Assembly: GCF_900091415.1 (NCBI RefSeq) | Contig: NZ_FMHU01000002.1 | Coordinates: 620,001-684,000, forward strand | Length of the DNA stretch: 64,000 nt | Source of the DNA: Micromonospora inyonensis | GTDB taxonomy: Bacteria; Actinomycetota; Actinomycetes; Mycobacteriales; Micromonosporaceae | Reading direction: 5' to 3' | Part shown: piece by piece, positions 54,332 through 60,114 of the stretch | How positions within the stretch are numbered: position 1 is the first letter of the stretch | Layout: each line of letters begins with the position of its first letter | Program-made: the position numbers and the translations under genes | The notes under the pieces: model-generated | What the model was told of the DNA's origin: nothing | Databases searched by the model: none | The model's input: only the letters and a program-made list of their open reading frames with translations

Positions 54332-55636
54332 TCACTTCACGCCACCGGCCACCGTCTCGGCCAGCGCGGCGCGCATCGCGAACCCCTGCGAGCCGCGGGC
54401 CGCCTGCGGCCAGAGCACCGGAAGCTGGCTGCCGTGTTCCACCCCGATCACCCGCCACCCGCTCTGCAACAGGGCGAGCGCGGCGGCACCGTGGGCCTGC
54501 TGGGCCTCGGCGCGGGCCCGCTCGGGCAGGTTGAGCCAACCGGCGCTGTCCAGCAGGAAGGCCACACAGGTGGCGCCGTTGCCCCGCAACGCGGCCAGCA
54601 GGTGGGCCTCGGCGGTGCTGAGCGAGCCGAGCAGGGCGATGATCAGCCCGCCGTCGGCGCGTTGCCGTACCCGCTCGACCAGCGTGGTCAGCTCGCCCCG
54701 CTGCTCCAGCCGGACCTCGGCGAGGTGGTCGAGGAGCACCCCGTCACCGGCGGCCTCCGTCGCGTCCACGTCCGCTCCGGAGCCGGTCACCAGGCGCAGC
54801 TTGTAGCCGGCCTGGCGCAGGTGCACGGCGATGCTCGCGGCGGCCGAGACGGCCCACTCGAAGCTCGCCGTCGGCCCGTCGCCGCGATGCCCGTACGCGC
54901 GGGTGTCCAGCACCACCGTCGCCCGGCTCTCCCACGGCTGTTCCTCCCGGCGCACCATCAGCTCCCCGGTGCGGGCGGTCGACTTCCAGTGCACCCGGCG
55001 CAGGTCGTCGCCCATCCGGTACTCGCGGGTCGCCGCGTCGTCCTCGCCGTGCACCGCCACCGAGCGGGCCCGGCTGTCGCCGCTGCCGGCGTACTCGCCG
55101 GGGAGCCGGATCGGCGGCAGCGGCGTGACCTGCGGGATCACCGTGAGCCGGTCGGTGCTCGGGAAGGCCCGGCTCAGCTCGCAGAGGCCGAACGGGTCGG
55201 TCATCCGCACGCCGAGCGGGCCCACCTCGTACCGGCCGCGCACGTCGGCGCGGACGGTGTACGCCACCGAGCTGGCCTGGAACGCGCCGAGCCGTTCCAG
55301 CACCACCCGGGGACGGCTGCCCAGCGCGTACGGCAGCCGGTCCTCGAGCAGCAGCGTCCCGGTGGGCAGGCGGGACATGTTCTGCAACCGCAGCACCACC
55401 CGGGAACTGGCCCCGACCGGCGCCCGGTGCGGGTCCATCGACCGGACGCAGGCGAGCTTGTAGCGGCTGCGCCCGACGTACGCGGCGGCGAGCAGCGGCA
55501 GCACGGCCAGCAGCACCGCGACCCGGAGCAGGTCCCGCTCCCCGAGCAGCAGTGCCGAGATCGCGGCGGCCACGGCGGCGGCCAGGAAGGACCGGCCGCG
55601 GGTGGTGAGCCCGCGCAGCCCGTCGCGCACGGTCAC
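54332..55636 (-). CDS. DUF58 domain-containing protein
   Basis: A 434-residue protein with two N-terminal hydrophobic segments (FLAAAVAAAISALLLG, RVAVLLAVLPLLAAAYV), then the DUF58 domain (YRMGDDLRRVHWKSTARTGELMVRREEQPWESRATVVLD with the family's DD-RR-W-T-A-R core). A von Willebrand-like fold is implied. GTG 55636 overlaps the MoxR stop (GTGA); it lies ahead of the TgpA gene. Confidence 0.85.
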   Translation of the reverse strand: MTVRDGLRGLTTRGRSFLAAAVAAAISALLLGERDLLRVAVLLAVLPLLAAAYVGRSRYKLACVRSMDPHRAPVGASSRVVLRLQNMSRLPTGTLLLEDRLPYALGSRPRVVLERLGAFQASSVAYTVRADVRGRYEVGPLGVRMTDPFGLCELSRAFPSTDRLTVIPQVTPLPPIRLPGEYAGSGDSRARSVAVHGEDDAATREYRMGDDLRRVHWKSTARTGELMVRREEQPWESRATVVLDTRAYGHRGDGPTASFEWAVSAAASIAVHLRQAGYKLRLVTGSGADVDATEAAGDGVLLDHLAEVRLEQRGELTTLVERVRQRADGGLIIALLGSLSTAEAHLLAALRGNGATCVAFLLDSAGWLNLPERARAEAQQAHGAAALALLQSGWRVIGVEHGSQLPVLWPQAARGSQGFAMRAALAETVAGGVK

Positions 55637-56685
55637 CGCCTCCGCGGCTCGTACGCCGAGCGACCGTTCCCGCTGGTCGGCCGGGTGTCGTACGGGGAGC
55701 GCCTGCGGTCCTGCGGAACGGTGAGCCGGTGCACCAGGTCGGAGACGATCGCGTCGGTGGTGCGCCGGGCGAGCTGCGCGTCGGCGGTCGGGATGATCCG
55801 GTGCGCCAGCACCGGGACCGCCAACGCCTGGAGGTCGTCGGGGAGGACGTAGTCGCGCCCCTCCAGCGCGGCGACCGCGCGGGCGGTGCGCAGCAGTTGC
55901 AGGGTGGCCCGGGGGGACGCGCCCAGCCGCAGCTCGGGGGCCTCGCGGGTGGCGGTGACCAGGTCGATGGCGTACTGCTTCACCGCGTCGGCGACGTGCA
56001 CCTCGCGGACCGTGGCGATGAGCTGCCGGACGATCGCCGCGTCGGAGACCGGCCGCAGGTCGTCCAGCGGGTCGACCGCGCCGTGCCCGTCGAGCATGGC
56101 CAGCTCCGCCTCGGGGCCGGGGTAGCCCATGGCGATCCGCGCGGTGAACCGGTCGCGCTGCGCCTCGGGGAGCGGGTACGTCCCCTCCATCTCGATCGGG
56201 TTCTGCGTCGCGATCACCATGAACGGGGTCTGGAGCTGGTAGGTGACGCCGTCGACGGTGACCTGCCGCTCCTCCATGCACTCCAGCAGCGCCGACTGGG
56301 TCTTCGGCGAGGCCCGGTTGATCTCGTCGCCGACGACCAGGTTGGCGAAGACGGCACCGGGGCGGAACTCGAAGTCGTGGGTCTCCTGGTTGTAGACGCT
56401 GACCCCGGTGACGTCGCTGGGGAGCAGGTCGGGGGTGAACTGGATACGGCGTACCGTGCAGTCGATGGACCGGGCCATCGCCTTGGCGAGCTTGGTCTTG
56501 CCGACCCCGGGAACGTCCTCGATGAGCAGGTGACCCTCGGCGAGCAGCACCGCCAGCGCGAGCCGCACGGTGGCTGTCTTACCCTCGATGACCTGCTCGA
56601 TATTGGCGACGATGGCTTCACTGGCGGCGCGGAACTCGTCGTGCGGCAGGACGCCGCCCACCTCGTCCCAGGTCTGTTGTGTCAA
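55633..56685 (-). CDS. MoxR-family AAA ATPase
   Basis: A 350-residue AAA+ ATPase, a chaperone-like partner of DUF58 proteins. Walker A LIEDVPGVGKTKLAKAMA, Walker B LVVGDEINRASPKTQSALLECMEE, sensor ATQNPIEMEGTYPLPEAQRDRF, and the C-terminal SGARATLQLLRTARAVAALEGRDYVLPDD region are present. TTG 56685 (LTQQTWDEVGG) is chosen since GGGAGG lies at the right distance; ATG 56730 is an alternative. Divergent from the leuS leader. Confidence 0.88.
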   Translation of the reverse strand: MTQQTWDEVGGVLPHDEFRAASEAIVANIEQVIEGKTATVRLALAVLLAEGHLLIEDVPGVGKTKLAKAMARSIDCTVRRIQFTPDLLPSDVTGVSVYNQETHDFEFRPGAVFANLVVGDEINRASPKTQSALLECMEERQVTVDGVTYQLQTPFMVIATQNPIEMEGTYPLPEAQRDRFTARIAMGYPGPEAELAMLDGHGAVDPLDDLRPVSDAAIVRQLIATVREVHVADAVKQYAIDLVTATREAPELRLGASPRATLQLLRTARAVAALEGRDYVLPDDLQALAVPVLAHRIIPTADAQLARRTTDAIVSDLVHRLTVPQDRRRSPYDTRPTSGNGRSAYEPRRR

Positions 56686-57016
56686 CGGGCCTCCCTCTCG
56701 TCGCCTGGACGGCAGCTCTGTATAGAGCACCTGGACCCGCCGTGGGGTTCGCGCGTCGAGCCTCTATTGCCGCAGGAATCACTGACAACTCAGGCTAACC
56801 ATGTTTCCCGCCCGCGCCGAACGCCGCAGGTAGACGGTCGGGTTACCCACCGAATAACCGTCTGGCGGGGGAATTGCGCCGCCGGTCGCGGCGGTGGCGT
56901 GGCGGATTCTGCCGGTGGCCCGTCCGCGGGCGGACCGCCACCGTCGTCGCCGGTGGCGGTCCCGTCGGGTGGAAGCCTGCGGCACGCTCCGGGCGGCGGC
57001 GGGTACACTGCCGTTC

Positions 57017-57055
57017 ATGGCCGGTTTCCAGCTGCTCCTTACCGGGCCGTGCTGA
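57017..57055 (+). CDS. Leucine attenuator leader peptide of leuS
   Basis: A 12-residue frame, ATG 57017 to TGA 57055, encoding MAGFQLLLTGPC with three consecutive leucine codons CTG-CTC-CTT; CTT is rare in this genome. It precedes a base-paired segment (57047-57079) and a terminator (57083-57107), then the leuS gene. A paused ribosome at the Leu codons would cover 57047-57054 and block that stem. The design is that of ribosome-mediated attenuation. No upstream ribosome site is clear; transcription may begin close to the ATG. Confidence 0.7.
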   Translation: MAGFQLLLTGPC

Positions 57056-57107
57056 TGCGCTGAACGCGCGACAGCACGGCGACCCCTCCTGCGCGAGGGG
57101 CTTTTTT
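57047..57107 (+). terminator. Attenuator structures and intrinsic terminator upstream of leuS
   Basis: First stem: CCGTGCTG (57047-57054) with CAGCACGG (57072-57079). Terminator: CCCCTC (57083-57088) with GAGGGG (57095-57100), followed by CTTTTTT (57101-57107), the only clear T-run terminator in the window. An alternative pairing, CGCGCG (57065-57070) with TGCGCG (57090-57095), would compete with the terminator and could be the antiterminator. The rest of the leader (57108-57279) has three further short hairpins. Confidence 0.75.
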
Positions 57108-57279
57108 GTGCCCCGAGCAGACCACGGCGAACCGAGACCTGACCTCCGTCCCGCGACGGAGCGTCACCAGCATGACGCCCCCGTCACGGGGCACGACAGA
57201 CACCGACGCCCCGCGACGGGGCGTCACCAGCACGGCCGAGGCTCGGCCCCGGCGGCCACGAGCGAAGCGAGGACACGCG

Positions 57280-60114
57280 ATGACTGAGGCAGCCGCGAGC
57301 GACATCCCCCCGTTCCGGTACACCGCGGCCCTGGCCGACGAGATCGAGCAGCGCTGGCAGGACACCTGGGAGCGGGAGGGGACGTTCCGCGCCCCGAACC
57401 CGAGCGGCCCACTGGCCGACCCCGGACACCCCCGGGCCGGTGCGGAGAAGCTCTACGTGCTGGACATGTTCCCCTACCCGTCCGGCGCGGGCCTGCACGT
57501 CGGACACCCGCTGGGCTACATCGGCACCGACTGCTACGCCCGCTACCAGCGGATGGCCGGACGCAACGTGCTGCACGCGATGGGCTTCGACGCGTTCGGC
57601 CTGCCCGCCGAGCAGTACGCCGTGCAGACCGGCACCCACCCGCGCACCACCACCGAGGCGAACATCGAGCGGTACCGGGCGCAGCTGCGCCGGCTGGGCC
57701 TGGCCCACGACGACCGGCGCTCGGTGGCCACCATCGACACCGGGTTCTACCGCTGGACCCAGTGGATCTTCCTGCAGGTCTTCAACTCCTGGTACGACCC
57801 CGAGGCACGCAAGGCCCGTCCGGTCGACGACCTGGTCGCCGAGTTCGCCGCCGGCACCCGGCCCACCCCGGACGGCCGCCCCTGGGCCGAGCTGACCGCC
57901 GCCGAGCAGCGGAAGGTCGTCGACGACCACCGGCTGGCGTACGTCTCGGAGGCGCCGGTCAACTGGTGCCCGGGGCTGGGCACCGTACTGGCCAACGAGG
58001 AGGTCACCGCGGACGGCCGCTCGGAGCGGGGCAACTTCCCGGTCTTCAAGCGCAACCTGAAGCAGTGGATGATGCGGATCACCGCGTACGCCGACCGGCT
58101 GGTCGACGATCTGGAGACGCTGGACTGGCCGGAGCCGATCAAGCTGATGCAGCGCAACTGGATCGGCCGCTCCACCGGCGCGCACATCGACTTCCCGACC
58201 CCGGCGGCCCCGATCCGGGTCTTCACCACCCGGCCGGACACCGTCTTCGGGGCGACGTACATGGTGCTGGCTCCCGAGCACGAGCTGGTCGACGCGCTGG
58301 TGCCGGCTGCCTGGCCGGCGGGGACGAAGGACGCCTGGACCGGTGGACACGCCAGCCCGCGCGCGGCGGTCGAGGCGTACCGGAAGGCGGCGGCGGCCCG
58401 CACCGAGACCGAGCGGCAGGCCGAGACGAAGGAGAAGACCGGCGTCTTCGTCGGCGCGTACGCCACCAACCCGGTCACCGGCGGGCAGATCCCGATCTTC
58501 ATCGCCGACTACGTGCTGGCCGGCTACGGCACCGGCGCGATCATGGCGGTGCCGGCGCAGGACGAGCGGGACTGGGACTTCGCCGAGGCGTTCGACCTGC
58601 CGATCGTCCGGACCGTTCAGCCGCCGGAGGGCTTCGACGGCAAGGCGTACACCGGGGACGGGCCGGCGGTCAACAGCGCCGCGCCCGACCGCGGCCTGGA
58701 CCTGAACGGTCTGGGGGTCGCCGACGCCAAGGCCCGGATCATCGAGTGGCTGGAGGCGAACGGGCACGGCACCGGCGCGGTCACCTACCGGCTGCGCGAC
58801 TGGCTGTTCAGTCGGCAGCGGTACTGGGGCGAGCCCTTCCCGATCGTCTACGACGCCACCGGTGCCGCCGTCGCGCTGCCCGAGTCGATGCTGCCGGTCG
58901 AGCTGCCCGAGGTCGACGACTTCGCGCCGAAGACGTTCGCACCGGACGACGCCACCTCGAACCCGGAGACCCCGCTGTCGCGCCGCCGCGACTGGGTCGA
59001 GGTGGAGCTGGACCTGGGGGACGGCCCGCAGCGGTACACCCGGGAGACCAACGTGATGCCGCAGTGGGCCGGCTCCTGCTGGTACGAGCTGCGCTACCTG
59101 GACCCGACCAACACCGAGCGGTTCGTCGACGCCGAGAACGAGCGGTACTGGATGGGACCGCGCGGCGAGGGCGACTGCGGGGGTACCGACCTGTACGTGG
59201 GCGGCCAGGAGCACGCCGTACTGCACCTGCTGTACGCCCGGTTCTGGCACAAGGTGCTGTACGACCTGGGCCACGTGTCGTCGTTCGAGCCGTTCCGCAG
59301 GCTGTTCAACCAGGGCATGATCCAGGCGTACGCCTACACCGACGCCCGGGGCGTGTACGTGCCCGCCGAGGAGGTCGTCGAGGTCGACGGCCGGTACGTC
59401 CACGGCGAGGAGAAGGTGCGCCGGGAGTACGGCAAGATGGGCAAGTCGCTGAAGAACGTGGTCACCCCGGACGAGATGTGCGCGGCGTACGGCGCGGACA
59501 CGTTCCGGGTGTACGAGATGTCGATGGGCCCGCTGGAGGTCTCCCGCCCCTGGGAGACCCGGGCGGTGGTCGGCTCGTACCGCTTCCTGCAACGGGTCTG
59601 GCGGACGGTGGTCGACGAGTCCACCGGCGCCCTGCGGATCACCGACGACCCGGCCGACGAGGCCACCCGCCGGCTGCTGCACAAGGTGATCGACGGGGTC
59701 CGCGCCGACATGGAGGGGATCCGGTTCAACACCGCGATCGCCAAGCTGATCGAGCTGACCAACGGGCTGACCCGGCTGACCGCCACCCCGCGTGAGGTGG
59801 CCGAGCCGCTGGTGCTGATGCTGGCCCCGTTCGCCCCGCACATCGCCGAGGAGCTGTGGCAGCGGCTGGGCCACACCGGCTCGCTGGCGTACGCCGACTT
59901 CCCGACCGCCGACCCGGGCCTGCTGGTCTCCGAGACGGTCACCTACCCGGTGCAGGTCAACGGCAAGGTCCGGGGCCGGGTCGAGGTGCCCGCCGACGCG
60001 TCCGAGGACGCGGTGCGGGCGGCGGCTCTGGAGGTGGTCGCCGCCTCGCTGGCCGGCAAGGAGCCCCGCAAGGTCATCGTCGTCAAGGGCCGGATGGTGT
60101 CGGTGGTCGCCTGA
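57280..60114 (+). CDS. leuS: Leucyl-tRNA synthetase
   Basis: Charges tRNA-Leu. 944 residues, class I synthetase. HIGH region [18 protein letters not shown] (with the HVGH form), KMSKS region [12 protein letters not shown], editing domain [38 protein letters not shown], and a C-terminal anticodon-binding domain with [14 protein letters not shown] are present. ATG 57280 (MTEAAASD) follows GAGGACACGCG; the frame is open upstream, through repeated hairpin DNA, but translation there is unlikely. Controlled by a leucine attenuator. Confidence 0.95.

Follow-up and report, generated by a model that had tools for sequence, protein, structure and literature searches.

In the window, i.e. the whole 64,000-nucleotide stretch of Micromonospora inyonensis DNA that we analysed, the leucyl-tRNA synthetase gene leuS is preceded on the same strand by a short leader ORF with a run of leucine codons and by two hairpins. 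The leuS product was identified by its TIGR00396 match (889 bits, cut-off 548), and the ATG at 57280 lies 172 nt past the T run of the second hairpin and 239 nt past the last leucine codon. The features of the region are:

57004-57009, + strand: TACACT, predicted -10 box, 7 nt 5' of the leader ATG
57017-57055, + strand: leader ORF MAGFQLLLTGPC with stop TGA; position, Leu codons and stop are conserved
57032-57040, + strand: Leu codons CTG-CTC-CTT
57038-57040, + strand: CTT, likely sensor codon, conserved in relatives
57046-57080, + strand: hairpin 1, GCCGTGCTG ... CAGCACGGC, with nine conserved and five apical pairs
57083-57107, + strand: predicted intrinsic terminator, CCCCTC-CTGCGC-GAGGGG followed by C and six T (6-pair hairpin, U tract)
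57280-60114, + strand: leuS, leucine--tRNA ligase (ORF, TIGR00396)

The gene upstream of the leader is divergent, and the predicted terminator therefore serves no same-strand gene upstream.

Three of the 12 codons of MAGFQLLLTGPC encode leucine. The initial annotation had pointed out this frame with its CTG-CTC-CTT run and had called CTT rare, which is borne out by 24 CTT among 1509 Leu codons (1.6%) in a rough set of 37 high-GC3 ORFs picked by script within the window. The transcript is likely leaderless, with its start at or near the leader ATG, as the 7-nt spacing between TACACT and ATG fits the distance from TAnnnT to the start in S. lividans transcripts, given as 6.3 nt on average in PMC8079986. 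A scan of the leader region for a sigma-70 -35/-10 consensus pair found none.

The 5' strand of hairpin 1 overlaps the final leader codons and the stop. Its folding energy of -25.4 kcal/mol (z -6.96) was reached by none of 200 shuffled sequences. Over both helices, 96.7% of the alignment cells are paired, compared with 39-49% for slid versions of the hairpin, and the leaders' own arms pair better than swapped arms (0 of 2000 permutations matched), a test that is also favoured by the kinship of the sequences. Two-sided changes were counted in 33 cells versus 10.9 in shuffles. Since 23 of these 33 cells stem from a single pair that differs between clades (U-A in 49 sequences, C-G in 23), they represent few independent covariation events. 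Taken as a whole, the sequence comparison supports hairpin 1. Although unpaired, the base directly 5' of it (57045) is a purine in almost every representative listed.

The second hairpin, taken alone, is weak (-10.5 kcal/mol, z just -1.61). Its pairs are nearly invariant among the leaders, and the site (57083-57100 plus CTTTTTT) is the sole terminator-like one in 56700-57400, where 0.3 would be expected. The order given by the initial annotation, a stem followed by a T-run terminator in front of leuS, thus holds for the two hairpins and the gene start listed above. In several relatives (e.g. L055, L060) no more than about 60 nt separate the terminator from leuS. Some further peculiarities of this region may be recorded. 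A 31-nt direct repeat of 87% identity (57142-57172 and 57202-57232) lies between terminator and leuS, and its 21-nt core occurs at these two sites alone in the genome (<=2 mismatches). The 3' arm of the terminator, GAGGGG, resembles a ribosome-binding site (57095-57109), as it does at this place in relatives. Directly past the U tract, 50 of 71 representatives have an ATG or GTG, which is absent in the Streptomyces ones inspected.

For a comparison across genomes we compiled 246 leuS upstream regions, made up of 86 search loci, 80 coordinate-placed loci and 80 named loci; members of the set are related, and some contigs are apparently present twice (L008/L172, L098/L173). Among the 118 class genomes, 67 had no leuS match at E 1e-25 and were left out there. 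Judged by leuS, the nearest named relatives belong to Micromonospora. A pattern describing hairpin 1 and the terminator but ignoring Leu and start codons, composed after inspection of the alignment, matches 182 of the 246 regions. The recurrence in relatives that the initial annotation had named as a check, Leu codons together with both stems, was found in the genus (61/61) as in the rest of the family (54/56), and the pattern also matches 20 of 49 other class loci and 47 of the 80 named loci. In all 182 matching regions the codon 8 nt 5' of hairpin 1 encodes Leu (CTT 179, CTC 2, TTA 1). The preceding codon is Leu in 180 and the one further 5' in 155 of them, and in 181 a TAnnnT box lies 4-9 nt ahead of an in-frame start. 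Among 74 representatives, CTT occupies the sensor position in 71.

A second, Leu-conditioned pattern matches 187 of the 246 regions, 176 of them with a terminator; the terminator pattern is unmet in the other 11 (L072, L075, L078, L082, L153, L167, L180, L184, L186, L189, L210). CTT makes up 182 of these 187, a figure from a pattern that itself required CTT or CTC. The distance from this codon to hairpin 1 is 8 nt in 185 of the 187 leaders, and hairpin 1 is separated from the terminator CCC by 1-3 nt in 180, whereas the loop of hairpin 1 varies between 13 and 79 nt. Hence the sequence drifts in the hairpin loop and ahead of the Leu codons, while two distances are kept fixed.

A covariance model (R1) was built from 74 leaders, including that of the window and 13 Streptomyces-type rows. 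It finds one match in the M. inyonensis genome (E 4.6e-18); the next one (E 1.12) was inspected as a sequence only and treated as noise. At E <= 0.01, R1 matches 54 of the 80 named leuS loci, some of which are in the training set. Grouped by the titles of the sequence records, these matches comprise 30/30 Streptomyces, 8/8 Micromonosporaceae, 8/9 Pseudonocardiaceae, 4/4 Geodermatophilaceae and 4/15 other loci. None of the 14 leuS loci from Mycobacterium, Mycolicibacter, Mycolicibacterium, Nocardia, Rhodococcus, Prescottella, Gordonia, Williamsia and Corynebacterium was matched. In the family's other genera, 54 of 56 loci gave a match. The exceptions are L046, which has kept a similar terminator but lacks the leader, and L133, which has neither and carries a TACAAT box shortly 5' of an ATG near the leuS start. 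From these two loci and the 14 Mycobacterium/Nocardia-type loci without the element it follows that leuS does not depend on the leader everywhere. Six Pseudonocardiaceae leaders (L180, L184, L186, L187, L189, L200) have retained Leu codons and hairpin, with a longer second hairpin (CCCCTCATGCC... type) and a short or missing U tract; termination may work differently in these leaders. Judged from these sequences, the leuS leader is a real, conserved element of a known kind.

Class-wide, R1 matches occur in 69 of 148 genomes, some not before leuS. When the first matches of 32 genomes were fetched, leuS was located downstream of 26 by tblastn. Of the other six, L313 precedes a gene for citramalate synthase, and L306 and L315 precede genes for acetolactate synthase; L299 resembles L287, L300 has no clear gene assignment, and L310 is cut by a contig end. 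Of eight second matches, L285 and L290 are without gene assignment. By NCBIfam names, the genes behind R1 matches other than the leuS ones encode citramalate synthase (L283, L284, L287, L289, L313), 2-isopropylmalate synthase (L286) and acetolactate synthase (L288, L306, L315). The citramalate synthase leaders carry Ile codons (e.g. MTHWMIII, MFYGLLIIGRRAG), a GC-rich hairpin and a terminator. M. inyonensis itself has a cimA leader VTRTALIIGT with ATT-ATT (L323, G000:C1, before 3190190) and an ilvB leader MPSFRFPRVLT ending in GTA-CTT (L327, G000:C1, before 3176772), the latter with hairpin and terminator laid out as in leuS; both start codons were called by eye and lack the script's TAnnnT box. 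A leuA-like gene of the same genome has the leader VFAFGLLLLRCHGGA with four Leu codons (L324, G000:C1, before 826005), behind which the script found no T run, as in known leuA leaders. In 13 non-leuS leaders the sensor-to-hairpin distance is 6-11 nt (a fourteenth yielded no terminator), so that the 8-nt rule appears to be looser there.

We propose that the 12-codon leader and the two hairpins behind it probably form a transcription attenuator of leuS, in which a stall at CTT would lead to read-through. Transcription would begin at the leader ATG or close to it. With ample Leu-tRNA, the ribosome would reach the TGA and depart, hairpin 1 would form, and transcription would stop in the U tract. 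With scarce Leu-tRNA, the ribosome would stall with the last Leu codon, CTT, in the A site. According to toeprint geometry, the leading edge of a ribosome lies 12-13 nt ahead. With CTT in its A site, a ribosome would thus mask the first five bases of hairpin 1 (GCCGT, the lower part of the 5' strand); stalled at the second Leu codon it would cover 2-3 of these bases, and at the first none. The smaller reach of the earlier codons may be the reason why the rare CTT is fixed in the last position. The initial annotation had assumed that a ribosome stalled at the Leu codons covers the first strand of the stem, which, given the near-invariant 8-nt spacing, is retained for CTT but not for the other two codons. 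With hairpin 1 blocked, termination would fail and RNA polymerase would continue into leuS. From the gene and its codons we infer more leuS read-through when Leu-tRNA is short, and likewise that the leader would respond to leucine.

How the loss of hairpin 1 would disarm the terminator is the weakest step of this scheme. With a stalled ribosome, the median predicted folding energy of the pre-terminator RNA is -14.1 instead of -32.7 kcal/mol, partly because the RNA is then shorter. As in trp-type attenuation, the leader has codons for the regulated amino acid and a predicted intrinsic terminator before the gene. A classical arrangement, in which GCRCGG on the 3' side of hairpin 1 becomes free, binds CUGNGY in the terminator loop and thereby excludes the terminator, is possible, yet we hold it tentatively at most. 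Seliverstov et al. state antiterminators for the Streptomyces leuS leaders (PMC1262725). The six-pair helix between GCGCGG and CUGUGC is intact in 49 of 53 Streptomyces-type (GCGCGG) leaders, and the mean duplex energy of region 2 against terminator arm plus loop is -8.25 kcal/mol over 71 leaders. However, only 12 of the 109 GCACGG-type leaders, among them that of the window by type, retain this helix, swapped partners pair equally well (-8.25 versus -8.25 kcal/mol, p 0.52), and permuted terminator loops perform the same (mean rank 0.49, n=57). We also calculated sequestration, i.e. the hold on the terminator 5' arm and loop by the RNA preceding the terminator 3' arm. In 183 leuS leaders the median hold during a stall is -1.5 kcal/mol at +12 and -3.5 kcal/mol at +15, compared with -1.0 kcal/mol without a ribosome and -3.3 kcal/mol with a ribosome at the stop. 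In view of this last value, stalling makes no clear difference to sequestration of the terminator arm. A hold of -5 kcal/mol is reached by 2% of these leaders at +12 and by 26% at +15, and the window leader has -1.4 and -2.6 kcal/mol, respectively. Non-leuS leaders range from 0.0 to -3.8 kcal/mol at +12 and down to -7.7 kcal/mol at +15 (13 leaders). The E. coli controls, in contrast, reach -13.7 (thrL), -9.3 (trpL), -8.4 (leuL) and -6.0 kcal/mol (hisL) at their best stall positions; the hold is weaker at some stall codons (e.g. 0.0 at the last Leu of leuL), and the values lie between 0 and -2.4 kcal/mol without a ribosome and between 0 and -3.7 kcal/mol with one at the stop. Alignment search, partner swaps, loop permutations and stalled-state energies thus lend no support to a conserved alternative helix as antiterminator, though folding predictions may miss a transient one. 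In these models, a classical, mutually exclusive antiterminator freed by stalling was not found. Two other pairings were considered and rejected. One, between the 5' arm of hairpin 1 and the terminator loop, was listed for 70% of 71 leaders and is no better for own than for swapped partners (p 0.99). The other, between the Leu codons and the 3' arm of the terminator (CUCCUU/GAGGGG), is visible by eye for CTC-CTT and broken by the Streptomyces CTG-CTT. Since a strong antiterminator was not found, one of two things would have to disarm the terminator: a transient, weak pairing between its loop and the freed 3' strand, or the absence of its partner, hairpin 1. Hairpin 1 beside the terminator may itself be the ribosome-controlled element. 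It is conceivable, if doubtful, that there is no antiterminator at all, that termination requires hairpin 1 at a distance of 1-3 nt from the weak 6-pair terminator, and that CTT acts as a position sensor. A ribosome at CTT would then wedge the base of hairpin 1 open and directly switch the terminator off. In the S10 operon, a hairpin upstream of the terminator is reportedly required for L4-mediated control, a precedent for a hairpin that helps termination.

That the leader senses ribosome slowing of any cause, e.g. by translation-inhibiting antibiotics, instead of leucine supply appears improbable to us. In the proposed model a stall at CTT would act alike whatever its cause, and antibiotic-responsive actinobacterial uORFs are described, e.g. 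for whiB7 (PMC13236596); on the other hand, all 182 leaders have Leu at the sensor position, the gene behind them encodes the Leu synthetase, and leaders of the same build before citramalate synthase-named genes have Ile codons. Hardly credible is a chance constellation of an ordinary terminator and a meaningless short ORF. Short ORFs with Leu runs do arise by chance, and our scan gave unrelated ones farther upstream, yet different families share the codon, its spacing and both stems, and the upstream gene is divergent; the result of the Leu-free pattern excludes this explanation for practical purposes. No T-box was detected in 55000-59000 at E <= 1, and the two matches listed for other Rfam families are both far below the gathering scores. 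The sequence evidence supports leucine-codon attenuation of leuS, which the initial annotation had put forward and which is still the best reading; it was right in outline, whereas the usual antiterminator was not found.

Data from Streptomyces weaken this attenuation reading. In S. coelicolor, substitutions of ilvB leader codons were reportedly without effect, and the effects of leuA leader mutations are at odds with classical attenuation (both as cited in PMC1262725), and ilvB leaders share the build of the leuS leader. If one position alone counts, our results may be relevant to this reported lack of effect in the S. coelicolor ilvB leader.

Among known systems, E. coli leuL likewise has consecutive Leu codons in the leader and a terminator before the structural gene. 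It controls biosynthesis, whereas the window leader precedes a synthetase gene, and in the same calculation its antiterminator pairing is worth -8.4 kcal/mol at best versus -1.4 kcal/mol in the window. Further cases may be listed in what is said to be a 2010 attenuator survey by Lopatovskaya and co-workers. Our searches of open-access papers yielded no report of a Micromonospora leuS leader or of a cimA leader. The ilvB leaders of Corynebacterium and Mycobacterium also have branched-chain codons, and attenuation has been proposed or supported for them (PMC10272879, PMC13236596), but they precede a different gene, and for ilvB1 a mutually exclusive terminator and antiterminator are described (PMC13236596). 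The LEU element of leuA, from the same bacteria, resembles the window element in having a leader ORF with a run of Leu codons; there, the run is proposed to pair with the Shine-Dalgarno box of the gene, without a terminator (PMC1262725). The window leader differs by its terminator and by the 239 nt between the last Leu codon and leuS.

The closest counterpart is leuL2-leuS of Streptomyces. Attenuators of leuS with antiterminators have been predicted for S. coelicolor and S. avermitilis (Seliverstov et al., 2005; PMC1262725), and according to S. lividans RNA-seq the leuL2-leuS leader (MRAVRLLLSEPR) is leaderless and followed by a terminator (PMC8079986). With these Streptomyces cases on record, the statement of the initial annotation that such an arrangement is rarely documented goes too far. 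What is new here is the spread over several families, the fixed distance from CTT to the hairpin and the lack of a detectable classical antiterminator. The analysis thereby extends a prediction from two Streptomyces genomes to several actinomycete families, in which the element is widely conserved ahead of an essential gene, and it pinpoints which codon counts and at what distance from the hairpin. If an antiterminator is truly absent, such leaders would be a simple system for studying how a stalled ribosome can defeat a terminator without a competing hairpin, and with the ilvB and cimA leaders of similar build they would then represent a modular design used by actinomycetes for branched-chain amino acid genes. 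Located upstream of leuS, with a Leu run ending in CTT and a homologous hairpin and terminator, the window element can, by its sequence, be assigned to the leuL2-leuS type. Both have 12 codons with three Leu codons, the last being CTT, a -10 box 6-7 nt 5' of the start, a hairpin over the stop codon, a CCCCTCCTG-type terminator and leuS downstream, and both are captured by one covariance model. They differ in the end of the leader peptide (GPC in the window, EPR/GPR in Streptomyces) and in the hairpin, which has U-A instead of C-G and a shorter loop in the window, and the six-pair candidate antiterminator of the Streptomyces type contains an A-C mismatch in the window.
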